Virus record (IMG/VR): IMGVR_UViG_3300010885_013691
Coordinates: 1 to 25,965 of that record
DNA from: a virus
Strand: one strand, 5' to 3'
Length of the DNA stretch: 25,965 bases
The position numbers and the translations under genes were made by a program. Under the pieces are notes generated by a model. It had not been told where the DNA came from. It did not search any database and saw nothing but the letters and a program-made list of their open reading frames with translations. Of this stretch, positions 1 to 18,516 are shown one piece after another; position 1 is the stretch's first letter, and every line of letters begins with the position of its first letter.

Positions 1-1373
1 ATACGTCTGGGCAGGAAATTATTATCATTCTGCTTACCGACAAACTGTATACCTATAACCCAGCGACAAGCGCTTTGTCTGCCGCTATAAACTATCCAGC
101 GGCAACAACCATTACAGACGCGTCTGTTGTTAGCATGGTTCAGGCAGGTGATAAAGTCTACATTTCCAGAGGATACGCGGTCCGCGCGCTAATTTTTGAT
201 TACGCCACAAACTCGGTCACAGTTATTACGTCTGGCGCGAACCAATTCCCCAATGCCGTAAGCCTGCTTTACTACGGCAACCGCATCATTGCTCAGAACT
301 CCGTAGACACCATTGCAGTTAGTCATTACCTTGAGTTTACTTCGTTTAACTCTGGTGACATGTTTAGGCTTAACGATGGCGGAAATGATGAGGTGGTAGG
401 CATCTGCCCTTGGACCCTTAACGAGTTTGTAATCTTGATGCGAAACAGCATCTTCTACGTCTCAGTTGGGACTGGCGCCTATGCTTCTGGCGCCAACATT
501 GCCGCAGATGCTTATGTCAAATCCTTAGCCTCAGACATAGGTTGCGTTGCGCGGCGTAGCGCCGTTCAGGCGGCTGGCGGCATCATCTTTTTGTCAGATA
601 ACGGGGTATACTTTCTTACTCCTCAGAACATTGGGGCTAATGAGGGTATCCGCCTTTTGACCATTGGGGAACCGCTTTCCTCGGCCATTGACGACGTCAT
701 CCAGCGCATTAATCGGACCTATTCCAAGAACGCCATTGGTATCTATTGGAACAACCGATACTACCTTGCCGTTCCGCTTGACTCAAGCACCACAAACAAC
801 GCGGTGCTTGTCTACAATTTTTTTAACAAGGCTTGGGAGTCAATAGACACGTTTCCTGCTGGTTTTAGCATCCAAAACTTTATTGTTGCTAAGAAGGGTT
901 CCGCGCGGCGGTTGCATGCGATTGATGCAACGCAGGGCCTTTTTCTGATGGAGGAACTGGAATACGACGAATACGGCCCTGCAACGGGAACCCCAATCCT
1001 TCCGTTTTACATTCCCACAACGCTTAACACGCTTGCTTTTACTTCCAATCAGATTGCTGGTCGAGCAGACAGTCGAACATACATTATGGGTTCTATGTAT
1101 GATAAGCGTTTTGCAAGCCTTGAATACGACCTTCAAATCCCTACTGGGGCCGCAATCAAGGCGTCTTGCATTACGAACAACCCAGACGCGACTACGATTG
1201 TAGATGAGTTTGGCTCTGATGCCGATGGAAACGACGCGTCGCGTCGCGTCCCTATCAGAAAAACGGCCTATGGCATCCGCATAAGGTTTGACGCAATTAG
1301 CCTAAGACCTACTATTAGGGGTATATTGATTAACGCCACAATTCCCGGTCATAACACTCAAAGCCAAGACTAA
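1..1373 (+). CDS. Phage tail protein, beta-propeller-like (5' partial)
   Basis: The frame is open to the left edge (first full codon at position 3), so this is the C-terminal part, about 457 residues, of a longer protein; the TTG at 75 is not a convincing start. It consists of repeated short beta-strand blocks (for example DKLYTYN, DKVYISRG, NRYYLAVPLD, NAVLVYNFFNKAWES), each a hydrophobic strand then a turn, as in beta-propeller tail hub or DNA-stabilisation proteins of podoviruses (P22 gp10-like in general character). No catalytic motif is seen. It lies directly upstream of a fibre-like gene (2-nt gap) and the ejection cassette, which supports a role in the tail. The exact family is inferred from sequence texture and position only; another neck or tail component is possible. 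Confidence 0.6.
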   Translation, partial: TSGQEIIIILLTDKLYTYNPATSALSAAINYPAATTITDASVVSMVQAGDKVYISRGYAVRALIFDYATNSVTVITSGANQFPNAVSLLYYGNRIIAQNSVDTIAVSHYLEFTSFNSGDMFRLNDGGNDEVVGICPWTLNEFVILMRNSIFYVSVGTGAYASGANIAADAYVKSLASDIGCVARRSAVQAAGGIIFLSDNGVYFLTPQNIGANEGIRLLTIGEPLSSAIDDVIQRINRTYSKNAIGIYWNNRYYLAVPLDSSTTNNAVLVYNFFNKAWESIDTFPAGFSIQNFIVAKKGSARRLHAIDATQGLFLMEELEYDEYGPATGTPILPFYIPTTLNTLAFTSNQIAGRADSRTYIMGSMYDKRFASLEYDLQIPTGAAIKASCITNNPDATTIVDEFGSDADGNDASRRVPIRKTAYGIRIRFDAISLRPTIRGILINATIPGHNTQSQD

Positions 1374-2920: not shown

Positions 2921-3814
2921 ATGGGCATCGAAACAGCAATTATTGGCAGTTCTCTCATTGGCGCGGCGTCCTCTGCTTCTGCGGCAAAGCAGGCAGGCAA
3001 GCGACCTCCGCCCCGTTCTTACTTTGGTGAGATGGATGAAGCCCTTGATGCTCAGGGGCGCGTTCTTCCCAAAATTATTGGCAACGAAAGTCAGGCTCAG
3101 GATGCCTATCGCGGCCTTCAAGAGCGTGGTCTTATGGGCCAGATGGGTTCCCTACGGAACCTCTACAATGCCTATACGCCAATGGCGGCTGATGTTAGCA
3201 GACAGAACATGTCTGCCATGTCTCCCCTTTACCAGCAGGCTTCTACGGGGGCCCGTGATGCCTACGTTGCTGGAATGGCGCCGGGTTCTTACAACCTTTT
3301 AAACTCGATGATTGGTGGCGCTCAAGGCGAACTTGACGCTGGAACTTCTCTTACTCCTGAGGCTCAGGCTTACGCCGAACAAGCCGCTCGTCGTGCTATG
3401 GCCGCGAGGGGCCTTACGGGTAATCAGGCTGTTCAGCAGGAGGTCCTTAACACCTACCAGATGGGTCAAGCCCGTCAGGACCGCGCCCGTCAATATGCAG
3501 GTGCCGCCTATGGCCTTGGCTCTGGCCTCTCTGGTCAGGCCGCGCAGACCTATGGCAACGTCATGCTTTCAAACATCATGAGCCCGACTGGCATGATTGG
3601 CGCCGCTGGAACTATGATTGGCGCTCAGGGTCCTCAGTTTACTCAGGCCGAGTCTCAATACATGGCTGGCATCAAAGGTCAGGAATACAATACTGCCGCT
3701 CAATCAAACATGGCCAAGGCTCAGGCTATGGCTGGCATTGGTTCTGGCTTCATGTCCATGGCTGGCTCCATGGGTCAGGGTTACTTCAGCAATCCCAACT
3801 TTAAGATTACATAA
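2921..3814 (+). CDS. Virion/ejection-type protein (Ala/Gly/Gln-rich)
   Basis: 297 residues. It begins with a hydrophobic small-residue segment (IIGSSLIGAASSASAA, residues 7-22) and continues as Ala-, Gly-, Met- and Gln-rich helices with many small residues. This is the character of podovirus internal virion or DNA-transfer proteins (T7 gp14 and P22 gp7/gp16-like proteins), which leave the capsid to form a trans-envelope channel. No enzymatic motif is seen. It is followed by two larger proteins of similar start, matching the usual small-medium-giant ejection cassette. The start ATG at 2921 lies 1 nt after the previous stop; its own TAA overlaps the next ATG (TAATG). The class is well supported by position and composition, the exact homologue is not. 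Confidence 0.7.
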   Translation: MGIETAIIGSSLIGAASSASAAKQAGKRPPPRSYFGEMDEALDAQGRVLPKIIGNESQAQDAYRGLQERGLMGQMGSLRNLYNAYTPMAADVSRQNMSAMSPLYQQASTGARDAYVAGMAPGSYNLLNSMIGGAQGELDAGTSLTPEAQAYAEQAARRAMAARGLTGNQAVQQEVLNTYQMGQARQDRARQYAGAAYGLGSGLSGQAAQTYGNVMLSNIMSPTGMIGAAGTMIGAQGPQFTQAESQYMAGIKGQEYNTAAQSNMAKAQAMAGIGSGFMSMAGSMGQGYFSNPNFKIT

Positions 3815-6051
3815 TGGCCAACCCATTTCAACGCTACCAAAGCGGCAGTTTTGAGCCTATTCAGGGCCTTGCCCAGTCTGGCGCCAACATCGGCCAGATG
3901 CTTGGCTCTGGCATCGCAAACTTTGGTTCAAGCATCGCTAAGGGCCTTGAGGCTTACAACGAGAACAAGGCTAAGTTTAGCGCCGCTATGGCTGATGGCG
4001 AGATTGCTGGTTCCCAACTGCTCCAGCAACAGCAGGCGTTCATTAATGCTTCTGGCATCGACCCTGAGTTGGCTAATCAGTATCTGACTTGGGATGGTAA
4101 GCCTGACGACGCCCTCGACACCGACGCGCTTCAGGCTATTTCAGATAACCCTTTCCTTCGTTACGCAAAGATGCTTCAGACTGGTCGTGATGGTCTGGAG
4201 AAGTTGCCGACTATGGCTCTGCCTAAAGCCCTTGCTACGCTTAACGCGGCCAAGGGCTCTATGGCTGTTGTAGACCAGCAGATGAAATTGGACCAGATGG
4301 TTGCTCAGGCTCGCCTTGAAAACGTCTCCGCTGGCCTTCCTGACGCAGTCCAGAAAACTCGCAAGGTCACAACCAGCGGTGAGGCTGGCGTCGACGCTAA
4401 CAATCCCTTCTTCAAGAACGTTGAGCAAGTCCGCGCTGGCCTCATTAAGTCAGGCGTTACTGCCGACCAAGTTGAACTTGGCGTTCAGGATTACATCAGG
4501 AAAGTCGAAAGTTCTATTGCCACCTCTGGCGCAACCGAAGAACAGAAGGCTGGTTTTGCCGAGGCTATTGCTCAGTATCGCGAAGGTCTGCGCACAGATA
4601 CTGGAAATGTTACTGACTATGGCCGCGCGGAGGACTTTGCCAACAAGGCTGTTGCGGATGCCCTTGCCGCAGGTCGTGCCGCTCAAAATGCTCCTAATAA
4701 CCCAGAAGGAAAGTCTCCCGAAGAACTGATTATAGAAAACGCCACAAAGGAACGTAAAGCCGCGGCTCTCAAGAAGGCTTCGGTTGAAAAGTTTGGCTCA
4801 CAACTACTTACTGACGTAAACTCCGCTCTCGACTCAGCAGTTCAACGAGAAAAGTCAATTACAGCAAGAGAACTGCTTGGTGTTATTGCAGGAAAGGAAT
4901 ATGCACAAAACCCAACTGGACCGAGTGTAGTTGTAACCCAAAATGCGCCCCGTATTGGCATGGGCGGCGCTGGCATGCCCGGAGGTGGTGGCTTCTCTGG
5001 ATTTGAACAGAGGGAAACAAATCCATCCTATGTGCCATCTCCTGCTTTTAATCAGTTCAAGAAGGTCATGGACGAACTTCGCTTGGACCCGAACAAGCCG
5101 ATTACCTATGACCAGATGTTCCAGATTAAGAAACAAATGGGCATTATGTCTGGTGAAAATCTCGCAAAGTCTGAGGCGACCTTAAAGCAAGAACAGAAGA
5201 TTACTCCTGCGACAGTTACCGCAGAACTTAATGCGGCAAGAACTGGCGCTCCTGCCGCTAAGTCTGCTCCCTTTGGCGTTGGCAAACTTGAACTTGGTGA
5301 AGAAAAATACGATGAGTTCCTTACGTCCATTCAAAAGGAAGCCGCCGCGCGCGAGTTCTACAAAGCCAAGTTTGGTGCCGTTCCTGTTGGCTTTACCGAC
5401 ATGTATCGTAAGATGTATCCTGAGGCTTCTGTCAGGTCTACTACCATCAAGGTCAATGGTCAGGACATTCCTATCATGATTGACTCTAAGGGCAACGCTA
5501 CGCAACTCAAGCAGGCTGAAGCCCCTAATGTCGTCGATGCCGCCAAGGCCAAGGCCGTCACGTTTGCCAACACCGAGATTGCCGATGGCGTCCGTCTTAA
5601 CGGCATCTTCTCTGGAACAGTCGACGGAGCCCAAGCCTTCCGAAAGGACTATGCTCACATGGCTAACGTTCGCACAGCCATTGGTCGCCTCATTGAAATC
5701 AACGAGTCTGGCTATGAGTCGCTTTCTCCGACCATGCGTCAGGAAGCCGACCAGTTGCAGTCTGAAATTATTGCCGCCCTCCGAGTGCCTATCATTGGTC
5801 CCGGTCAAGTTGCCGTTCCAGAACAGGAAATCCTCCATCGCATTGTTAAGAACCCAACTTCCCTCTTTAGCCTTGAGGCTTCTGACCGCGCCGCCCTTAA
5901 GGGCCTTATGTCGCGAGTTGACCGAGAACTTGTCAACTGGCCAAAGTCCATGGGTCTTGACGTCAACATTGCTGGCAACAAGAGCCAGACAATCCGACAG
6001 TTACGCTTGAACCGCGAAAGCAAGGCGCGTATGGTCGGTGAAACTGAATAA
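3814..6051 (+). CDS. Large virion/ejection-type protein
   Basis: 745 residues, mostly predicted helix with Ala, Gln, Lys and Glu; no signal peptide. The first 45 residues are Gly/Ser/Ala-rich (for example SGANIGQMLGSGIANFGSS), like the start of phage internal virion proteins that insert into membranes. A Gly-rich loop (around residues 383-393, GMGGAGMPGGGG) separates two helical halves. It is the second member of a three-gene set: about 300, 745 and 2661 residues. By analogy with T7 gp14-gp15-gp16 it would be the middle ejectosome protein. Translation is coupled by a 1-nt TAATG overlap with the upstream gene, and the next gene starts 5 nt after its stop. The function is inferred from order and composition. 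Confidence 0.65.
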   Translation: MANPFQRYQSGSFEPIQGLAQSGANIGQMLGSGIANFGSSIAKGLEAYNENKAKFSAAMADGEIAGSQLLQQQQAFINASGIDPELANQYLTWDGKPDDALDTDALQAISDNPFLRYAKMLQTGRDGLEKLPTMALPKALATLNAAKGSMAVVDQQMKLDQMVAQARLENVSAGLPDAVQKTRKVTTSGEAGVDANNPFFKNVEQVRAGLIKSGVTADQVELGVQDYIRKVESSIATSGATEEQKAGFAEAIAQYREGLRTDTGNVTDYGRAEDFANKAVADALAAGRAAQNAPNNPEGKSPEELIIENATKERKAAALKKASVEKFGSQLLTDVNSALDSAVQREKSITARELLGVIAGKEYAQNPTGPSVVVTQNAPRIGMGGAGMPGGGGFSGFEQRETNPSYVPSPAFNQFKKVMDELRLDPNKPITYDQMFQIKKQMGIMSGENLAKSEATLKQEQKITPATVTAELNAARTGAPAAKSAPFGVGKLELGEEKYDEFLTSIQKEAAAREFYKAKFGAVPVGFTDMYRKMYPEASVRSTTIKVNGQDIPIMIDSKGNATQLKQAEAPNVVDAAKAKAVTFANTEIADGVRLNGIFSGTVDGAQAFRKDYAHMANVRTAIGRLIEINESGYESLSPTMRQEADQLQSEIIAALRVPIIGPGQVAVPEQEILHRIVKNPTSLFSLEASDRAALKGLMSRVDRELVNWPKSMGLDVNIAGNKSQTIRQLRLNRESKARMVGETE

Positions 6052-6056
6052 TCTTC

Positions 6057-9000
6057 ATGGCTGAACTTTATAGCAATCCACCCAGAGAAGTTGCTCTGGG
6101 TGGTCCGTTGGCATTTAATGGCCAACAGCAATCAGAAGAACAGGCGTTTCTGGCTACGTTGAACCCAGAAGAACGTGCCGCCGCGGAAGCCGAACTTGCC
6201 GCGCCTATCACGGGAGACGAGTTGGCCGACATTATGTCGCAGAACCCGCGCTATAAGCCGACCTATGAGGAGTATGGTCTGTATAAGGACTGGATGAAAA
6301 AGAAGGAAGTAGACGTCATCGGAGCGTTTACTGATGGTTTTGGTCAGGTCCTTAATGACCTTAGCAACGCCGTTTCTGCTGGATGGGAAGCCGACGACAA
6401 GTTGGCCAAGGCCCTGCCTACTGTCTTTGAAGGTTTCGCCCGTGGCACCCGTGACTTTTATGGCATGCTGGCTCAGTCTCAGGACCCGAACAGCGTCTTG
6501 TTCAAGTTCAAGAATGTCCTCATGGGAGATGGCTCTGACCCTGAGGCTGAATACAAGCAGTTCCTTGAAGCGCGTGAGTTCAACGCGACTTCGATGGACA
6601 TTATGGGAGGCAAACTTAACGCCTCCCAACTTGCTGGCATCCAGATTGACCCAAGCATGGTCATTCCTGAGGTCGCTCAGGCGCTCTCTTACATCGCAGA
6701 CCCTACCCTATTCATCCCTGCTGGTGCCGTCGGCGCCGTTGCTAAGGCTGGAGCCAAGGCTATCGGGGCTGGTCACTTTGCCGAGAAAATCATCGCCGCG
6801 GCTGGTCGTGCTTCGGTGATGAAGGACCTCGTCATGGGCGGTGCCCTGCGCGTTGCAGGCACCCCTCTTGAGTTTGTTGGTCGTGCCGTCAGCGGAACTA
6901 TTGATGGTGCCGTATCCCGTGGCTCTGGCCTCTTTGGCGACCTTGTTGGCATGACGCCGCAGGCATTTGAACAGACAGTAAAGGGTGCTGGTCTTGCTGG
7001 AACTGCTTTCCGAGTTCCGGGTTTGTCCATGGTTTCTGACGCTTATTACGTTGGCAACGCCGCCGCGGGAGTTGGCGAGACATTAGGTGCCGTTGGACGC
7101 CAGATAATGAACAAGCCGCGAGGCATCCTTTCGTATGCTGGTCGCGCTCTTAAGGAGGAGGCCGCTCACCTTAGTCCTCAGGCCAAGCGCATGCTTCAGA
7201 TTATCGACACAGTCGACCCTGTCTTTGGCTATGCTTATGCCGCCGCCGAAGGAGCCATTGAAGGCTCTATCATCGGCGCTGGCCTTGGTGGTCTTGCTGG
7301 CGGGCTTGAAGGTGCCGCCGCTGGCGCTGGTTCTGGTTCCGCGCTTGGCGCTATTGGTGGCACAATCGGCCGCGGACTTACGGACGTCGTAAAGGAACAC
7401 ACGCGTATTCAAGCCGACATGGTCATTGAGGGTCTTAAGGATACAGACCAGACACAGCATGGCGCAATGACGTTGCTCCGTCAACTTGGTCAAATCCACG
7501 ACAAGTCTTATGACCATATTATCGTGGGTCTTGATACTGTGGCTCCGGGCGCCCGTCTGCACATGCACGACGGCGCCTCTTTTGAGGCTTACCTTCAGCA
7601 GAACAAACTCGTCGACAAGTTTGACCCTGACCGCAAGAACCGCATCACACGCGGTGAGGACCCGAAGAACCCAACGATGTATCATCAATGGGAAGGGTTT
7701 GTCATTCAGGAAACCGCTGGCCACGCCACGGACATTTACATCAACACGGATTGGGCCAGCAAGAACGCCATCGGACATGAACTGTTCCATGGCATCATGC
7801 GTTCGTCCGTCCACGCCAAGAACTTCACCGACGCAGTCCGTCGCTCGTTCATCGGCGAACGCGGTCCTAACGGAGAAGTCCTCAAAGGCGCTGAAGTCGC
7901 TCCCGCTGAAACGCATGAGATGTTCAAGCGCTACATTGAGGCTGAATACAAGGACCCTGCTTCGCGCAAGGCAAAGATGGACCAGTTGGATGCGGCCATC
8001 AAGGAGTGGGAAACTAAAGGTAGCCTCATCTCTGAGTCTGGACTCGAAGGACGTGCTGTTCTTGAAAATCTGTCAGAGGAGTTCGGTGCTTACTACTTCA
8101 ACCATTGGCTCGATGACCAGCCGCCTGACTATCTTTTCTACGGCGGTAAACTTCCGGGCCTTCGTGGCGTAATCGAGAACGTCAAGTTGGGCTGGCTCGA
8201 CTGGACTGAAGCCCGCCTTAAGAGTTCTACCAACGGCTTTGATTTTAGTAAAGAAGTCATCGACGCTCAGACAGGCAAGCCTCGCAAGGCTTACCTTGAC
8301 GAAGTGTTTAGGCCCGGAAGTGGCCGCGTAAAGCGCTCCTCGCTTGAATACCTGATGCGTGACCTTGTGCGCGCGGCCTCGGGTGTTGAGCGTGGTGACA
8401 TTATCGACCTTAACGGAATGACGCCTGAACAGCGTGGGCGCTTCATGGATGTTCATGGACTTGATGGTTTGTTCCGTCGCGACCCTGCTGGTGGCGCCCG
8501 TGAAACCTCTGAGGCTCAAATGCGCCGCGAAAACCAAGCGCGCGTCAAGGGTATCATTGACGTCCTTGGAACCATGCAGGCTACTGACCGCAGTTCTAAG
8601 ACCATTACTCAGACCGACGGAACCATTAGCATTGTCGGAAACCTAAACGACGCAGAACTTGGACAGATTGTTCGCGCTGGTCACATGACTCAAGCGCTTG
8701 CCGACAAGTATGCCATGTTCCGCAAGATTAGCGAAAACAAGGGCAAGACCGACAACGTCGTTCAGGTCAACTATTGGGGTGAAACCTTTGAAAGAGGTTC
8801 TGGTGCCTCTCCTCGCCGCGCTCGTCGCGGTGCTGGCGACGCCGTTCCAATGACGCGTCGAGTCCTTGTGCCGTTTGGCATGGAAACGGAAATCGTCCTC
8901 AAGCCTAATGGCGACTTTGTCCTCGGATTACGTTCTGCTTCCCTTGACTACAACAACCTCCAGAAGCGCAGTCAGGCCGTATATGACCAGCCGCAGGCCC

Positions 9001-12000
9001 GAGCGCTCTACAACAACGACTACAACTCGTTCCAAGCGGACTTCTACCGCTACCTTCAGAACCTTAGCGACCCTAATGCTATCCCATCCGCTGACCTTTT
9101 TGGTGGCGGTGCTGACGGCGCGGCAAAGCGCAACTTCTTCCACGAAGTCGTAGGCGCCGCTTTACGTCAGGGTGAGGCTCACACCAACGCGCCCCGTCAG
9201 GGCTTTGCTGGAGCCTCTGGTCGTGGAGAATACTTTGTGTATCAGACGCTCCGTTTGGACCGCATGAGCCACGTCACAGTCCGTCCCCATACTGTTCCTT
9301 ACGACCATACTGTTGCCTACGATGGCCTGCGTCTAAACAAGAAACCGCACGAACTTCCGCAGGAGTCAACTCCCAACGGGACTGTTTACAAGCATCCTCT
9401 CGGCTACAACATCATTAAGAGCGGAGCCAAGGTTAAGGTCTATGACCGAAGCAACGAACTCGTAGGAGTTCATGACTCTGTTGAGTCCGCTTCCAATGCG
9501 GTCACGGCTCATAGCGACAGGGTTCATGCCAACCTTACCGAGAAGATTGCCGAGCCTTCTGACTACGCTATCAAGAACGCTGGCAATGGAACCTTTGATG
9601 GTTCTTACAGCGAGACGCGTGGAACCCTTCCCATCAACAAACTTTCTGGCGGCGTCCGCCTTACGGACCCCACCGAACGCGCCAAGGTTGATGCGCTTAA
9701 ACAGAAGATGCAGGGCAAGGATGGATACATCCAGCGCATCATTGTAGACCAAGAAGGCAACGTAATCGAAGGCCAGCATCGCCTTGAAGCCATGCGCGAA
9801 CTTGGGATGAAAGACATTCCTGCCATCATCCTTACCGAGACAATGTCTAAGATGCCAGACGCCAAGCAACTTCTTGAGAAGTTCAAGGATGCCTCTGGAC
9901 TACGTCCTGAACAGTCCCGTCAGATGGTTGAGCATGCCATCAACATCATTGGCAAGGAAGGCGTCCGAGCGCTTAAGAACTATTCCATGCCCGACGAGTT
10001 TGCTGGCGCGTGGAAATCTCTTATTCGCATGATGGATAAGGAACGCGCACCTGACGTCAGCCTTAAGCCCGTAGAAAGCCCTGAAGGCAATTCGCGTCGA
10101 GACTTTGCAGATGCCCGCGATGAAGTTGCATTTAAGCGCTTTGCAAAGGGGACCGAGATTGTCGACCCAGCAGACGACGCGGCCTCTTACATTGACGTTT
10201 TTGGTAACATGGCACCGCTTCCAAGCGGAACGGCAAGTTCCAAAAACCTGATGGGAAAAACATTCTCAAAGGGCGGAACGTTTTTTGCTTATCATGGCTC
10301 TACAAGCCGCCGCCGCTTTGGAACGCTTCGCACAGAACTAACACCAGAACAGTCGTATTGGGCGCGCAAAGGTAGCACAGACTCCTCAATGGGAACTCAT
10401 TATACCAATGACGAGGTCCTTGCGACAAACTTTACGTTACGCAAAATCGACAAAGATGGCGCTGGTTATGCTTGGCGTCGTGACAAAGACGGAGATTTTG
10501 AAACCTCAGGTCCAAGCGGTAAGGGTGGACAGTTGTATAAAGTGGCCGTTCGGATGGATAGCCCGTTCTACTTTGACAACGAAGTAACCATGAAGTTGGA
10601 AATTGATGCCGCAGGCGGCGCCGAAAAGTTAAAGGAAAAACTTAAAGAGATGGGTCATGATGGCATCATCTACCGCATTGAAGCCGAAGTCCGCGACCAG
10701 CAGAAAAAACTGCGTGGAGATTTTGGCGTTAAAGATGCTCCTGATTTTGCCAACCAGTATCTGATGGAAGATGTGTTTGGCTACATTCCCTTCGACGCCA
10801 AAAAAGTAAAGGACGTCGAAAACAACAAGGGCACCTATGACCCTAAGAGCGACCAAATCAACATGAAGCCCGTTGAGGAAGGCGCCAATCCTCCTCGTAG
10901 CATCAAAGAACTCGTCGCCGAACAGGGCGCTAACTTTGACCCTAAATCTCTTGTTGGCTCCATCATCCGCTATAACGCTGACCGAACAGGTGAGACGCCT
11001 CAATACTCGCGCATCCTTGATTACGGACAGAACAAGAACGGCCACTTCTTTAAGATTATCAAGGAGGACGTTTATCAGGAAATCCTAAGCAACAGACTTA
11101 CTGGACGAGCCCTTGACATGGCAATCAAGGATGCAACCAACATGTTTGGTGGTAACAAGAATGAGCCTTACAAGACTGTTCCAGAACTGACCAAGTGGCT
11201 TGGACGTATCTACGATGAAGCCCAACTACCCAAGGAAGGCGCTGAAGCCGCGGCTCCCGTCCGTCCTGTTCTTGACAACATCGACGTTCAGAAGATGCGT
11301 GACACGCTTACCGATGCCGAAAGCGTAATTGATGGCGTAGACTTTGGAAAGGAAGCCAGCACCATCCTTTACGGGAACAAGTCTGGCTCTAAGAAGGGCG
11401 CCATGAAGTCGATGAACGAGGCTATGGATGCCTTTGAAAAGGCTACTACCCCTGAGGCCCGACAGGAAGCCATCCAGCAAATCCAAGAGGCTGTTGAAGA
11501 AATCACGCAACTGCGCGATGAACTTCAAGATACGCAGGACCGCTCTGAGGCGTTTGAGAACACCGAAGGATACCAGCGTCGCGAAGCCCAGATTGAAGCG
11601 CTTGATGAAGCCGTCCAGTCTTTTGAGGACGCCCTGACGCCCGACGAACCTGACGCTGGCACCGCTACCCCTGACGCACCGCGAGCCAGCATGAAGCCCT
11701 ACGAGGGCAATGCTGATGAGATGCCTAATCAGAACATGCCGTCTGAAGTGTTTAGCGTCCTTGAACGTGCCAACGGACGGACACCTGAAGAACTAAAAGA
11801 ACGTAGTGAAGAACTACGTCGCCTTGGCATGAAGAACCCTGCTGTTGCGGCTCTTATGACTGAGGTTGAAAGGCTCAACAAGTTGCTTCCAAGCGGAAAG
11901 AGTGGAGGCATGACGTTGGACTTTGCCGACCTTATCACGCGACTTTCAAACAAGTTTCGCAACTCAGCAAAAGACCCGTCTGGAAACATCGTCGATAGCG

Positions 12001-14042
12001 GAGGCTATGTAGACTATCAGAGTTTTGGCATCAACGACTTTAGCGAGTTAAACAAGACGTATCGCGGAGTAATTAACGAGATAGCCACGCGACTCATTGA
12101 CCTTAACAAGATTTACGCAAGGTGGATTACTGACCAGCAACGTTCTCCAACCCGTCCTATGGACGCCTCAAGTTTGCGCGGCGTAGGCGGTGTAGATTTG
12201 GAAACAAAAATGACGAAGTTGAACGAGGAGTTGAGCGCCCTTCGTCACGCTATGGCTGTTGCCAAAATACCTATCTCTGTTCGTCAGATGGTTCACGCTA
12301 TGTCAATGGGAGGAAGGATGCAAAAGATTACTTCGGGCGCCGTTGCGCATCCGAACGGAGGTCTTGATGCGTTGCACACAAAAAACAAACACCTGTTGTT
12401 TGCAGACCAAGCCTACATTAGCGGGTTACATCCCGGCCGAGAACCAGTCACGCATTTCATGATACTTGCCGCTTGTGAGGTTCAGGGCGGAATGGATGGC
12501 GCTACTGCCAACATGTATCGAAGGATGCTTACCACTCCGACACTCAATAGTCGTGGTTCTGTTTATTCCAATGTGCCAAGCAAGCCGCTGTTGCTTGAGG
12601 AGGCAAGTTTCAAGGGTGGCTCAATGCACTACTCTCAGAACAAAGAGGGCATCAACATCCCTATCTCTGGCTACACATACCTTCCCGAACTGGGCCTTAG
12701 AAATGCCACCTCAATTTCGGACAAAAATCTACGAGTTCACTCAGGACAAGATACGTTTGCTGGCGTAATGCTACATGAGATTGGACACTCTTGGCAACTT
12801 GACCGACTTGACTCTGTTCGTCGTGGAAGCACTACATTCCTTAACCGAGCAAATCAGGGAGGAGAGATTAAGAGACTTGCCGTTAATGACGTTGAAAGAA
12901 ACATGGGGGCCTTCCTTCGTCATGAACCTTATGAGGTTAATGGATTAACAATAAAAGCAGACCATGACGGAGTTGCTTGGTTTGACGGAGTTAATCTTTG
13001 GTTAGACTACTTTGAAACAAACCCCAAAGCCATGCGCGATGTAGACATGGCTTTGCTTACCAAACTTTGCGTCGCAAAGTTCTGGAAAGAGTCGGCTCAA
13101 AAAGTTCTTAAAGACCCAGCCAATCCTAAAGACGGAACGATTTGGCAATACTACAAGAAAACCAAGTTAATTGGTGTTCAGAACAACAGCCGTTCCTCTA
13201 ACAAGGGTATTTATCATTGGTCTACGATGGCTGAGTTCATGACAGGCATCCACACCAACGTCGCGCAGATGAAGGACTTGGCCAAGATTGACAGGGTTGA
13301 CATGGGCAAGGCTCAAGCAATTTTTGACTTTGTTAAAACCGAGATAATGAAGTCTGCGGGCCAGAACAGCGCCGCTTATCAGAACGCTTTTGCTCAGGGC
13401 CTTGATTACGCAAATACGGCAAACGGAATTAGCACAGGCGACCCCAAGGCTTTTGCTCAGATTACGGACATTATGGTAGCCATGATGATTGCTACATCTG
13501 GCGTCCGCCCCGAGTCGATTGGAGAGGGTTCATTTAAGGGTGGAGGTGCGTATAAAGCCGCCAGCGGTAAGTCTAATGCTCCTCCGACTGGCCCGCCTGC
13601 TGGCGGCGCCGCACCTGCCCCCGCACCTGCACCAGCGCCTGCACCAGCGCCCGCCCCTGCCCCTGCCCCTGCACCAGCCCCTGCGCCTGCACCCGCGCCA
13701 GCGCCAGCCCCTGCACCAGCACCTGCCCCCGCCCCTGCGCCTCCTCGGCCAGCCCCTGCGCCTGCTCCCGTTCCTCCGCCCCAGCCAGCCCCTGCTCCCG
13801 CACCAGCGCCTGCGCCTAACCCCCTGCCCGGAAATCCGAACAAGCAACCGCCTATCATCTGGCGCTCTTGGACAAATGATACTACCGAAAACGGCTCTAT
13901 CTTCAAAAACGCCGTGGGGTATAGCATCGTCTACCTTGCAGGTAAGAAGTTCAGGCTCTACAACCCTCAGAACGCGCTCATGGGCATCTACAATGACATT
14001 GAGGAAGCCAAGAAGCGTGTCCGTCGAGACGAACCAAAGTGA
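6057..14042 (+). CDS. Giant polyvalent virion protein (2 x HExxH, ParB-like, ART-like)
   Basis: 2661 residues. Order: hydrophobic and Gly-rich segments (about 200-240 and 400-440) suited to membrane insertion; a metallopeptidase-like HELFH at 574-578 with a downstream Glu pair at 674-675; a 47-residue module at 1107-1153; a ParB/sulfiredoxin-like domain about 1190-1265 with G-Q-H-R at 1239-1242; an ADP-ribosyltransferase-like domain about 1405-1600 (YHGS at 1412-1415, a GHDGIIYR block, and GTYDP at 1592-1596, as in ART-PolyVal domains); a coiled coil about 1788-1858; a second HEIGH site at 2240-2244; a Pro-Ala tract about 2516-2592; and a second copy of the module at 2612-2659. This mix is the hallmark of polyvalent proteins, which accompany phage DNA into cells. 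As third gene of the ejection cassette it is likely packaged and ejected. Activities are inferred from motifs. Confidence 0.8.
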   Translation: MAELYSNPPREVALGGPLAFNGQQQSEEQAFLATLNPEERAAAEAELAAPITGDELADIMSQNPRYKPTYEEYGLYKDWMKKKEVDVIGAFTDGFGQVLNDLSNAVSAGWEADDKLAKALPTVFEGFARGTRDFYGMLAQSQDPNSVLFKFKNVLMGDGSDPEAEYKQFLEAREFNATSMDIMGGKLNASQLAGIQIDPSMVIPEVAQALSYIADPTLFIPAGAVGAVAKAGAKAIGAGHFAEKIIAAAGRASVMKDLVMGGALRVAGTPLEFVGRAVSGTIDGAVSRGSGLFGDLVGMTPQAFEQTVKGAGLAGTAFRVPGLSMVSDAYYVGNAAAGVGETLGAVGRQIMNKPRGILSYAGRALKEEAAHLSPQAKRMLQIIDTVDPVFGYAYAAAEGAIEGSIIGAGLGGLAGGLEGAAAGAGSGSALGAIGGTIGRGLTDVVKEHTRIQADMVIEGLKDTDQTQHGAMTLLRQLGQIHDKSYDHIIVGLDTVAPGARLHMHDGASFEAYLQQNKLVDKFDPDRKNRITRGEDPKNPTMYHQWEGFVIQETAGHATDIYINTDWASKNAIGHELFHGIMRSSVHAKNFTDAVRRSFIGERGPNGEVLKGAEVAPAETHEMFKRYIEAEYKDPASRKAKMDQLDAAIKEWETKGSLISESGLEGRAVLENLSEEFGAYYFNHWLDDQPPDYLFYGGKLPGLRGVIENVKLGWLDWTEARLKSSTNGFDFSKEVIDAQTGKPRKAYLDEVFRPGSGRVKRSSLEYLMRDLVRAASGVERGDIIDLNGMTPEQRGRFMDVHGLDGLFRRDPAGGARETSEAQMRRENQARVKGIIDVLGTMQATDRSSKTITQTDGTISIVGNLNDAELGQIVRAGHMTQALADKYAMFRKISENKGKTDNVVQVNYWGETFERGSGASPRRARRGAGDAVPMTRRVLVPFGMETEIVLKPNGDFVLGLRSASLDYNNLQKRSQAVYDQPQARALYNNDYNSFQADFYRYLQNLSDPNAIPSADLFGGGADGAAKRNFFHEVVGAALRQGEAHTNAPRQGFAGASGRGEYFVYQTLRLDRMSHVTVRPHTVPYDHTVAYDGLRLNKKPHELPQESTPNGTVYKHPLGYNIIKSGAKVKVYDRSNELVGVHDSVESASNAVTAHSDRVHANLTEKIAEPSDYAIKNAGNGTFDGSYSETRGTLPINKLSGGVRLTDPTERAKVDALKQKMQGKDGYIQRIIVDQEGNVIEGQHRLEAMRELGMKDIPAIILTETMSKMPDAKQLLEKFKDASGLRPEQSRQMVEHAINIIGKEGVRALKNYSMPDEFAGAWKSLIRMMDKERAPDVSLKPVESPEGNSRRDFADARDEVAFKRFAKGTEIVDPADDAASYIDVFGNMAPLPSGTASSKNLMGKTFSKGGTFFAYHGSTSRRRFGTLRTELTPEQSYWARKGSTDSSMGTHYTNDEVLATNFTLRKIDKDGAGYAWRRDKDGDFETSGPSGKGGQLYKVAVRMDSPFYFDNEVTMKLEIDAAGGAEKLKEKLKEMGHDGIIYRIEAEVRDQQKKLRGDFGVKDAPDFANQYLMEDVFGYIPFDAKKVKDVENNKGTYDPKSDQINMKPVEEGANPPRSIKELVAEQGANFDPKSLVGSIIRYNADRTGETPQYSRILDYGQNKNGHFFKIIKEDVYQEILSNRLTGRALDMAIKDATNMFGGNKNEPYKTVPELTKWLGRIYDEAQLPKEGAEAAAPVRPVLDNIDVQKMRDTLTDAESVIDGVDFGKEASTILYGNKSGSKKGAMKSMNEAMDAFEKATTPEARQEAIQQIQEAVEEITQLRDELQDTQDRSEAFENTEGYQRREAQIEALDEAVQSFEDALTPDEPDAGTATPDAPRASMKPYEGNADEMPNQNMPSEVFSVLERANGRTPEELKERSEELRRLGMKNPAVAALMTEVERLNKLLPSGKSGGMTLDFADLITRLSNKFRNSAKDPSGNIVDSGGYVDYQSFGINDFSELNKTYRGVINEIATRLIDLNKIYARWITDQQRSPTRPMDASSLRGVGGVDLETKMTKLNEELSALRHAMAVAKIPISVRQMVHAMSMGGRMQKITSGAVAHPNGGLDALHTKNKHLLFADQAYISGLHPGREPVTHFMILAACEVQGGMDGATANMYRRMLTTPTLNSRGSVYSNVPSKPLLLEEASFKGGSMHYSQNKEGINIPISGYTYLPELGLRNATSISDKNLRVHSGQDTFAGVMLHEIGHSWQLDRLDSVRRGSTTFLNRANQGGEIKRLAVNDVERNMGAFLRHEPYEVNGLTIKADHDGVAWFDGVNLWLDYFETNPKAMRDVDMALLTKLCVAKFWKESAQKVLKDPANPKDGTIWQYYKKTKLIGVQNNSRSSNKGIYHWSTMAEFMTGIHTNVAQMKDLAKIDRVDMGKAQAIFDFVKTEIMKSAGQNSAAYQNAFAQGLDYANTANGISTGDPKAFAQITDIMVAMMIATSGVRPESIGEGSFKGGGAYKAASGKSNAPPTGPPAGGAAPAPAPAPAPAPAPAPAPAPAPAPAPAPAPAPAPAPAPAPAPAPPRPAPAPAPVPPPQPAPAPAPAPAPNPLPGNPNKQPPIIWRSWTNDTTENGSIFKNAVGYSIVYLAGKKFRLYNPQNALMGIYNDIEEAKKRVRRDEPK
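13602..13830 (+). repeat. Pro-Ala low-complexity tract in the giant gene
   Basis: About 75 residues alternate Ala and Pro almost without interruption, coded by mixed GCN and CCN codons. Such tracts form stiff, extended linkers. It joins the second metallopeptidase-like half to the C-terminal 47-residue module. The synonymous-codon variety argues for selection on the protein sequence and not simple recent slippage. The opposite strand carries a long Gly-Ala frame that is only its shadow. Confidence 0.9.
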
Positions 14043-14449
14043 ACAAGGACTTTTATCTTTCCGCCTATCCTTATCAGGAAACTGATAGGCAAGGGAGCAG
14101 TCCCTATTCAAGTGGGCTTCAATTTGAATACAGGCCGTCGTTTACAGACGTCTCACTACAAGGCGGATACCAGAAGGGTCAGTATAGGGCTGGTGAACAA
14201 ACCAGCAGTTACAATCTTGGGGTAAGTGTCCCCATCGTCCCCAATAGCCTTCATGCTTTATATGGCATCAATGGATATGATGTTCGTAACTCGCAGGCTG
14301 GCCAGAACTACCGCGGAGTTAGTCCTTCTATTGGGCTTAACTACACAACCCCGCTATGGCAGGGTTCTGGCTGGAATATGAACGCCAGCATGAACAAGCA
14401 AGGTCAGCAAAAGCCATCATACAACATTGGCCTTAGCAGGACATACTGA
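14039..14449 (+). CDS. Small beta-barrel-like protein, no signal peptide
   Basis: 136 residues from a GTG start overlapping the TGA of the giant gene (GTGA). The protein is a series of alternating polar/hydrophobic strands joined by Gly/Ser/Gln turns (for example GLQFEYRPSF, DVSLQGGY, YNLGVSVPI, GLNYTTPLW, WNMNASM) and ends in a strand with a terminal aromatic (YNIGLSRTY). That is the texture of a 7- or 8-stranded outer-membrane barrel, yet there is no Sec signal. Its position directly after the ejection proteins and before the holin suggests either a virion-delivered barrel or a lysis/host-surface role. No homologue is recognised; the fold is inferred from strand pattern only. Confidence 0.7.
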   Translation: MNKDFYLSAYPYQETDRQGSSPYSSGLQFEYRPSFTDVSLQGGYQKGQYRAGEQTSSYNLGVSVPIVPNSLHALYGINGYDVRNSQAGQNYRGVSPSIGLNYTTPLWQGSGWNMNASMNKQGQQKPSYNIGLSRTY

Positions 14450-17150: not shown

Positions 17151-17318
17151 TTAGCGGGAAGATTTGATGCGATGTTCGATAGCGGCGCGAACTAATTTAG
17201 AGCGCGTTGTCTTAACGCGTTTTGCCTCGGCGTCCATTAGCGCGAGGAGTTTTTTGGGCAGGCGGACAGTCAGCATTTTTTCGGACAGCGGCGCGTCCTT
17301 GGCGAGTAGTGTGTTCAT
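17151..17318 (-). CDS. Ribbon-helix-helix (Arc/CopG-like) DNA-binding protein
   Basis: 55 residues. The layout is textbook RHH: a short strand (KMLTVRLP, residues 14-21), helix A (KKLLALMDAEAKRV), turn (KTTRSK) and helix B (LVRAAIEHRIKS). RHH dimers insert a two-stranded sheet into the DNA major groove at short palindromes. The ATG at 17318 overlaps the TGA of the transglycosylase gene by four nt (ATGA) and the ERF ATG comes 2 nt after its TAA, so it is clearly part of the operon. Likely a phage regulator or operon autoregulator; the TGTA-N-TACA dyads near the right-arm promoters are candidate sites (inference). Confidence 0.8.
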   Translation of the reverse strand: MNTLLAKDAPLSEKMLTVRLPKKLLALMDAEAKRVKTTRSKLVRAAIEHRIKSSR

Positions 17319-17839
17319 TTGGCGTAGAGAAGAAGAAAAGCCCTTGCAAGAATACGACGACGCGTTTCAGGAAGGAAGGGGTTGGAGTGTTGGTGGCCAT
17401 AGCGATTGGCACCTTTGATACCAAGGTTGTAAGACATGTAAAGAGAAATCTTCGTCGGAGTTAAACCCATCTTCAACTGACGTTCTTCCAGCCAGCGGAG
17501 GTGTTCCTGCGCCACGACGTAAGACTTCTTCCAATCAAAGCAGTTGGCCTTGCCGTAGGCATAGGACTTGGGGATGTGCCCGAACAGGCGCCGCACCGAG
17601 TCGTCCCAACTTGCGCGGTGCATCTGGAAGGCGCCAAGCGCCAGCCCAGAGTCTCCGATGGCGGCGGGGTTGACGTTGCTCTCAATCTGGGCAACCTTCA
17701 TAAGCAAGCCATCGTCGACCAAGGACGCCGCGGAAAGGGGGAGGGACGCCAGCAGTAACGCTGGCGCCCCTGTTGATGCTATGCAACCCGCAAGGCTCAA
17801 CAACACCCTGCGAAAGATAGATTGGGGTTTGTATGTCAT
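17315..17839 (-). CDS. Lytic transglycosylase / lysozyme-like endolysin
   Basis: 174 residues. N-terminal basic segment and hydrophobic stretch (about residues 10-37, with LLSLAGC and SLPLSA) resemble a signal peptide, with a lipobox-like LAGC. The catalytic part starts LLMKVAQIESNVNPAAIGDSG, with Glu at about 53 as the likely catalytic acid, then LGAFQMH, as in soluble lytic transglycosylases; a Tyr/Asn motif (ISLYMSYNLG) follows as expected. It would cleave peptidoglycan for lysis or entry. It is coded in the middle of the replication operon, four nt overlap on each side (ATGA with DnaC-like and RHH genes), while holin and spanin candidates are on the plus strand. Whether it is exported, membrane-anchored or signal-arrest is uncertain. 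Confidence 0.7.
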   Translation of the reverse strand: MTYKPQSIFRRVLLSLAGCIASTGAPALLLASLPLSAASLVDDGLLMKVAQIESNVNPAAIGDSGLALGAFQMHRASWDDSVRRLFGHIPKSYAYGKANCFDWKKSYVVAQEHLRWLEERQLKMGLTPTKISLYMSYNLGIKGANRYGHQHSNPFLPETRRRILARAFLLLYAK

Positions 17840-18516
17840 CTGTCAAGCCCTGCCCCGATGAGGGTATAGTAATCCTTGAACCGACGGATTAGCGCCGTGG
17901 CCATCTCCTTGTCGTCAAACCTATCCGCAAGGCTTTGACTGTTGAAGTTCGTCGTGATGATAGTCGGCCGCATGGCAGTCGTGCGCTCGTCAAGGACGGC
18001 AAACAAGTCAGACGTCAAGCGCGGCGTGGCCCGCTCCTTGCCCAAATCGTCAAACACAAGGACGTCAATCTTGGTCAGGTCGTCCAGCATGCGGGCGTGA
18101 GCCTTCTCGCCAAAGGACTCCTCAATGAGCCCCTCAAACTTACGCATCGTTAGAAACTGATAGGGCATGTTCTTATCGCGCGCGGCCTTCTCGGCCCATA
18201 AACGATTAAGAACATACCACGCGGCGCGCGTCTTGCCTACGCCCGTGGTCCCGTGAAGTAGCAGGCCAGACTTGGAGTCCTTGGGCGACCAATCGACGGC
18301 CGACTGCAAGCGCGGATGTAACTTGTCTACCGACGTGTCGCGGAATAAGGCTGGGTAAGACGGGATGAACTTGGGCATCTGATAGCCCTCCGCGGCAAAG
18401 CGGGCTTGGTCGTAATGCTCTCGGCACTTGTGGTAGCGGACCAACTTGCCATCGGTATTGACGCCGAGGACACAGCGCTTGCCACAATGGCAGGCTATCG
18501 TAAAATCAGAACTCAT
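17836..18516 (-). CDS. DnaC-like ATPase (replicative helicase loader)
   Basis: 226 residues. An N-terminal Cys cluster (Cys9, Cys11, Cys15, then Cys31, with His34) suggests a small metal site. Walker A is at about residues 86-95 (HGTTGVGKTR), Walker B in LVFDDLGKE, then sensor 1 (IITTNFN) and a terminal Arg pair (LIRRFKDYY) as in AAA+ loaders of the DnaC/IstB family. Such proteins bring the host replicative helicase to the origin. It follows the winged-helix initiator (11-nt overlap), the order known from lambda O-P and DnaD-DnaC phage modules. No helicase or polymerase gene is visible in the window, so it probably loads the host helicase. Confidence 0.85.
   Translation of the reverse strand: MSSDFTIACHCGKRCVLGVNTDGKLVRYHKCREHYDQARFAAEGYQMPKFIPSYPALFRDTSVDKLHPRLQSAVDWSPKDSKSGLLLHGTTGVGKTRAAWYVLNRLWAEKAARDKNMPYQFLTMRKFEGLIEESFGEKAHARMLDDLTKIDVLVFDDLGKERATPRLTSDLFAVLDERTTAMRPTIITTNFNSQSLADRFDDKEMATALIRRFKDYYTLIGAGLDR

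Follow-up and report, generated by a model that had tools for sequence, protein, structure and literature searches.

Among the described systems, those closest to the giant phage protein analysed here are the polyvalent proteins and the largest ejection proteins of T7, P22 and N4. According to Iyer et al. 2017 (PMC5512222), phage polyvalent proteins are encoded in a late-gene context and are believed to be carried in the virion and to enter the host with the DNA; the proposal of 2017 is that metallopeptidases within these proteins carry out their processing. The same work describes P1 DdrB as processed before packaging, and N4 vRNAP, though it carries an MPTase, as packaged unprocessed. N4 vRNAP is a giant ejection protein with an HExxH domain, which is expelled after two smaller ones and has been proposed to traverse the tail as beads of 250-300 residues (PMC12633501). 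T7 and P22 likewise have three ejection proteins, with large differences in the size and domain content of the gp16-like one, and T7 gp16 depends on five basic residues at its C-terminal end (PMC8954989).

The window, i.e. the whole stretch of DNA under analysis, corresponds to a 25,965-base virus record of IMG/VR and is probably a fragment. Since its left end lies within or close to a gene for a tail tubular protein B, or nozzle (Table 1), its source is most likely a short-tailed phage. This gene also matches PHROG head-closure families, and its start may lie off the contig. It is followed by genes for a fibre-like protein of 375 aa, for proteins of 138, 297 and 745 aa, for the giant protein, and for proteins of 102 aa and 257 aa, the last of which is lipoprotein-like. 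The giant gene is encoded among virion structural (late) genes and is the third of three cassette genes downstream of the nozzle gene, with the 375- and 138-aa genes intervening between nozzle and cassette. A preliminary description of this DNA had placed it directly behind two smaller ejection-type proteins, and this placement holds: the gene order around the giant is identical in five related contigs, as far as these reach. With hhalign, we found no significant match to T7 gp13, gp14, gp15 or gp16 for the 138-, 297- and 745-aa neighbours and the core of the giant; the comparison with gp16 used a single-sequence template.

Table 1. Location of the nozzle gene, the putative ejection cassette and the parts of the giant protein in the window (residue numbers refer to the giant protein)
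Feature	Position	Strand	Basis
Tail tubular protein B / nozzle (stabilization protein)	75..1373	+	39% identity to C75C1 Hc3 head-closure protein; PHROG tail families
Putative ejection protein 1, 297 aa, gp14-like by position	2921..3814	+	synteny
Putative ejection protein 2, 745 aa, gp15-like by position and size	3814..6051	+	synteny
Giant polyvalent gene, 2661 aa, third in putative ejection cassette	6057..14042	+	five open homologues
Constant N-terminal core, residues 1-1156	6057..9524	+	67-69% identity to five relatives over ~1140 aa
Gly/Ala-rich borderline hydrophobic stretches, residues ~211-300 and ~390-445	6687..7391	+	composition, hydropathy
Zincin-type metallopeptidase 1: H574 E575 L F H578, distal E674/E675 in LSEEFGAYYF	7494..8126	+	invariant residues
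Small repeat domain, copy 1, residues 1106-1153	9372..9515	+	similar to C-terminal 61 residues, E=2.5e-8
ParB-like module, residues 1157-1336, GQHR at 1239-1242; window member only	9525..10064	+	profile matches
Junction motif 1, LKPVES, residues 1336-1341	10062..10079	+	motif scan
ART-PolyVal-like module, residues 1337-1603	10065..10865	+	Pfam; identity of 53-55% to three relatives
Junction motif 2, MKPVEE, residues 1603-1608	10863..10880	+	motif scan
Conserved helical module, residues 1604-1879	10866..11693	+	49-52% identical in five relatives
Junction motif 3, MKPYEG, residues 1879-1884	11691..11708	+	motif scan
Second zincin-type module, residues 1880-2516, HEIGH 2240-2244, distal E2393	11694..13604	+	30% identical to one relative
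Pro-Ala linker, residues 2517-2589	13605..13823	+	relatives have Pro-Pro or Pro-Thr
Conserved C-terminal tail, residues 2600-2661, repeat copy 2	13854..14042	+	79-89% identity, six proteins

Position, size and the precedents of T7 gp16, P22 gp16 and N4 vRNAP make it probable that the giant is packaged in the phage head and enters the cell together with the DNA. That it is instead a host-interacting protein made in the cell and not packaged appears very unlikely, since in all relatives its gene sits between that of the 745-aa cassette protein and genes of lysis type, and since a late-gene context is general for phage polyvalent proteins.

Some neighbouring genes have features of their own. The 138-aa protein (2503-2919, +), between the fibre-like gene and the cassette, gives a weak GNAT-family match (0.019); it has the length and place of T7 gp13, for which hhalign provided no support. 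A 136-aa ORF rich in beta-type alternation (14039-14449, +) starts at a GTG that overlaps the stop codon of the giant gene and sits between the latter and the 102-aa gene; no match was found in the five relatives, whose 102-aa gene directly follows the giant. By eye, the product of 17315-17839 (-) resembles a secreted lytic transglycosylase or lysozyme. Its gene adjoins a helicase-loader-like one (17836-18516, -), and the pair, similar to one in L025 and L046, stands apart from the holin-like and lipoprotein-like genes. We also considered a giant encoded in C75C1 (OQ984151.1, 38751..7576; 2769 aa), at the same place after nozzle and fibre genes, as a homologue, which was not supported; it is coiled-coil-like, with PDFNV, PEFTV and PDFSV strings repeating between helices. 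Two genes on (8707-12738), C75C1 encodes a 1343-aa protein in which a KLYRGGT stretch of ART-like look comes after a Gly-rich segment.

The giant gene of the window is real, as it begins with ATG, is open throughout and has five homologues that are open over 2862-3282 aa. Its reading as a polyvalent protein, advanced in the preliminary description, is well supported, with ParB-like, ART-PolyVal-like and zincin-type sites in one chain. It fits the definition that Iyer et al. 2017 (PMC5512222) give of phage polyvalent proteins: at least two domains of disparate biochemical function share one polypeptide, and in a relative a GNAT domain scores above the cut-off. Other parts of that description fared unevenly. 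The Pro-Ala linker is present as described. The proposed membrane-type segments are indeed Gly/Ala-rich but borderline, with 19-residue hydropathy peaks of 1.2-1.4, and are not clear transmembrane helices; the proposed coiled coil corresponds to a charged helical region (residues ~1780-1870) but matches generic helical families only. The exchange of cargo, the junction motif and the fact that only the first HExxH site is conserved, all described below, had been missed.

The ParB-like domain is supported by Pfam ParB_N (1.8e-4 on a slice, under the gathering score; residues 1209-1260), by PHROG ParB-like families (to 3.7e-6) and by ParB/Noc chains in the PDB (0.02-0.06), and the conserved GxxR core of the ParB/Srx superfamily is found as GQHRLEA (residues 1239-1245). 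For the ART-like domain, Pfam ART-PolyVal (PF18760) matches the window module with E=0.014 over 122 of the 140 profile positions and two of its three orthologues with 3.4e-5 and 4.6e-4 (none in the third), but all these matches lie under the curated cut-off of 31.2 bits. H1413 and D1535 are invariant, and strand 2 carries an invariant H1448, followed by Y/F1449; the first two fit the H-Y-D active-site triad described for ARTs of this kind, of which they may represent the H and the D. Given scores under the curated Pfam cut-offs, the ParB-like and ART-like domains are either diverged members of these families or look-alikes.

As noted in the preliminary description, the protein contains two HExxH sites (residues 574 and 2240), where 0.06 would be expected by composition or from shuffled sequences. 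Their assignment to metallopeptidases is backed by the motif itself, by invariant residues and by secondary structure, but no named metallopeptidase family was matched. The first site, HELFH, is invariant in all six proteins, as is the subsequent LSEEFGAYYF; in a low-confidence AF2 model, it lies in a strand-strand-HExxH helix arrangement that is followed by a helix with the distal Glu. This peptidase matched neither Pfam nor an MPTase profile. The second site occurs only in the window protein and one relative, while in the other four EExxH stands in the matching module. Since the first HExxH is invariant whereas the second has been lost in four relatives, the core peptidase is the better candidate for any general processing, and the second one may be cargo. 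In L048 (8750-10240) and the same module in L029, L044 and L045, FEEVMHTFHGE or a similar string stands where the window protein has LHEIGHSWQLD, and the module is possibly a degenerate zincin or one with another ligand set. Another giant zincin-bearing phage family is found in L088, L089 and L093 (IMG/VR), with ORFs of at least 837, 1864 and 2060 aa. These large phage proteins are unrelated to the giant; they have a GHELFHG site after a strand-like LMLHIN and no KPxE motif.

AlphaFold models of residues 440-1336 and 1337-2516 reached a mean pLDDT of 46 each, probably due to shallow alignments, so structure searches decide little. With these models, no confident PDB match was obtained (Z at most 4.6), and the payload model matched no viral structure. 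Foldseek searches of predicted viral proteins with the model of residues 440-1336 gave hits (E 1e-25 to 1e-5) to proteins of uncultured phages, such as A0A6J5R0Z9, A0A6J5MBV1, A0A6J7X551 and A0A6J5NJD3, with GNAT, ART-PolyVal-like or LPD (large polyvalent protein) annotations. The model being poor, these hits are best read as remote sequence similarity picked up by the search and not as a fold match. PDB sequence searches with profiles of the core, the ART module and the second peptidase gave chance matches only.

Starting from the nozzle gene, we found 14 related contigs, five of which (IMG/VR) contain the giant gene as a whole: G2 (2862 aa), G5 (3200 aa), G9 (3243 aa), G10 (3282 aa) and G11 (3267 aa). 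Among named phages, tblastn searches with the whole protein and three slices gave no match, and a scan of genome contigs with the core yielded no relative. The six proteins share constant ends. All begin with the core, and all end with a Pro-rich linker and a 62-residue tail, whose terminus VRRDEPK is invariant. The first copy of the small repeat domain, with five strands and a helix (pLDDT ~70-79), lies just ahead of the variable region, so that the cargo is bracketed by two copies of one small domain, at the end of the core and in the tail.

Between core and linker, the cargo varies and comprises ParB, up to three ART-like modules, GNAT, the helical module and a true or degenerate second peptidase; most modules are 175-293 residues long. 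When the six proteins were cut at [FMLY]KP[VASYT][EDS][GSDEN] and the segments grouped by BLAST, the groups were clean, with the repeat domain as the only cross-link. The core and the helical module are present in all six proteins, a first ART-like module and GNAT in five each (both are missing from the window protein), and a second ART-like module, the window-type ART module (including the window) and the degenerate-peptidase module in four each. The HEIGH peptidase is shared by the window protein and G2, the ParB module is found in the window protein only, and one unmatched module in G5 only. Calling the other modules ART-like relies on inspection, as hhalign comparisons with the window ART module were not significant. 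In G5, residues 1908-2142 (L029:5922-6626) have no Pfam, PHROG or NCBIfam match and carry the junction motif on either side, making this a candidate for an unknown injected domain.

A short motif, [FMLY]KP[VASY][ED][GSDEN], marks almost all module junctions, with 3, 4, 6, 6, 6 and 6 copies per protein. Shuffled versions of the same proteins have a mean of 0.03-0.04 copies, and none of 1000 shuffles exceeds 2. K-P is constant in 31/31 copies by definition of the pattern; it is followed mostly by V or A, then E, G, and D or E. An exception is the core/ParB junction of the window protein near residue 1155, which lacks the motif and has its nearest copy 183 residues off. A broader pattern, KP[VAYS][DE], adds only a single conserved site in each relative, a KPSE at ~1097 of the core, the sole site of this pattern away from a module boundary. 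On the related contigs examined, KP[VASY]EG[DE] is restricted to the giant genes, and in an exact scan of 2.9 million viral contigs MKP[VA]EGD was found in 33 stretches, with more than one copy per ORF only in family members. The motif was also considered as a general mark of polyvalent proteins, which the giants of F116, USP_25 and Dfl-JY45, found with an invented ART-like consensus probe, do not support, as it was not found in them. A junction motif of this sort is not mentioned in the parts of PMC5512222 used here.

The ends of homologous blocks in BLAST alignments also fall near the motif. In a breakpoint test, 48 of 73 block ends lay no more than 15 aa from a motif, against a null mean of 8%, a count to which the shared motif letters contribute by drawing block ends towards them; with the motif masked, 35 of 41 distinct ends lay within 20 residues (null mean 4.3 of 41), where the bias is the opposite one, as masking can end blocks. 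In both tests, the six proteins are related and not independent, and the clean grouping of segments is the stronger evidence.

That module exchange occurs at these points could suggest that the motif is a trace of module gain, i.e. a short homology for recombination, without a function in the protein. This is very improbable, since 5-7 residues are short for homologous recombination and the codons differ between copies in one gene. The codons for Pro, Val/Ala, Glu and Gly all vary in this way, which disfavours a recombination seam in the DNA and suggests that the motif letters are kept more at the protein than at the DNA level.

Our preferred explanation, to which we assign a probability of roughly 60%, is that the giant is the largest of three putative ejection proteins and a polyvalent cargo chain, with the junction motifs as processing sites or hinges. 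The constant core and C-terminal tail would serve in packaging, tail passage and anchoring, while the exchangeable modules, here the ParB-like, ART-PolyVal-like and helical modules and the second peptidase, would become active inside the host shortly after entry, possibly on host targets and against host defences. The K-P-x-E motif would be either a cleavage site of the chain, for which the invariant zincin-type peptidase of the core is the simplest agent, or an unstructured hinge that allows the modules to pass through the tail singly.

In its most specific form, the cleavage version describes an injected self-cleaving polyprotein, whose core metallopeptidase recognises K-P-x-E, so that any module flanked by the motif could be added, delivered and released. 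We offer this as a tentative model that is rather unlikely in its entirety. The motif may be only a hinge, because N4 vRNAP is packaged unprocessed in spite of its MPTase (PMC5512222). The modules would then work as one long, uncut chain of beads on a string, as has been proposed for N4 vRNAP, whose giant chain leaves the virion as beads of ~250-300 residues joined by linkers that are not visible (PMC12633501). Module sizes similar to those of the N4 beads, and the suitability of Pro and charged residues for a linker, point in the same direction. However, a hinge does not require the same K-P-x-E letters between unrelated modules, and the Pro-rich linker of the same protein retains its composition and not its sequence. 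With these points weighed, we consider an uncut hinge a serious possibility that falls somewhat short of even odds.

Cleavage need not be the work of the giant's own zincin, and another phage protease could cut the motif in head assembly. Some prohead proteases cut after glutamate. Most motif copies read x-x-E, followed by G, S, D or E, and SPN3US gp245 cleaves C-terminal to glutamate (PMC10052503). Yet three of the proteins carry Asp for Glu in their first motif copy, and PHROG searches recognised no head-maturation protease among ten structural-region proteins of a 39-kb relative, several of which had no match at all, which makes such a protease an improbable agent.

Within our preferred reading, either role of the motif would have consequences beyond this family. 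A junction motif at nearly all boundaries of six giants is a precise and testable candidate for the place where polyvalent proteins are cut. A cleavage site would account for the swapping of injected effectors with the delivery machinery left intact, and a hinge would favour the beads-on-a-string model of protein ejection. In practice, the motif provides a rule for splitting such giants into single modules for assay, and the family makes the processing of polyvalent proteins directly testable.

Compared with known systems, the giant is most like the polyvalent proteins of Iyer et al. 2017, which also combine several unlike enzymatic domains in one large chain beside virion structural genes, including ART-PolyVal-like and ParB-like domains and a zincin-type HExxH with a distal Glu. 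Unlike these, the window protein has diverged domains below the Pfam cut-offs, constant ends, exchanged cargo and a repeated junction motif. P1 DdrB (PMC5512222) unites a ParB-like domain and an MPTase in one virion-associated protein, a combination that the giant probably shares, but belongs to another phage type and has another domain order; the window ParB module was assigned by its matches to general ParB/Noc profiles. With N4 vRNAP (gp50) of the Schitoviridae, the giant shares two smaller, in its case putative, ejection partners, an N-terminal region of membrane type (borderline in the giant), an HExxH domain and a chain of domains, whereas the linkers of N4 vRNAP are long and unlike each other, and the window protein has a repeated short motif and no recognised RNA polymerase domain. 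Like gp16 of T7 and P22, it is the putative third ejection protein after gp14-/gp15-like genes that follow the nozzle, and it has a basic C-terminal end; it differs from them in being 2-4 times longer, without a recognised transglycosylase domain or detectable sequence homology. The class of protein is known; what is new is a family that combines constant ends with modules that are exchanged and a junction motif that recurs.
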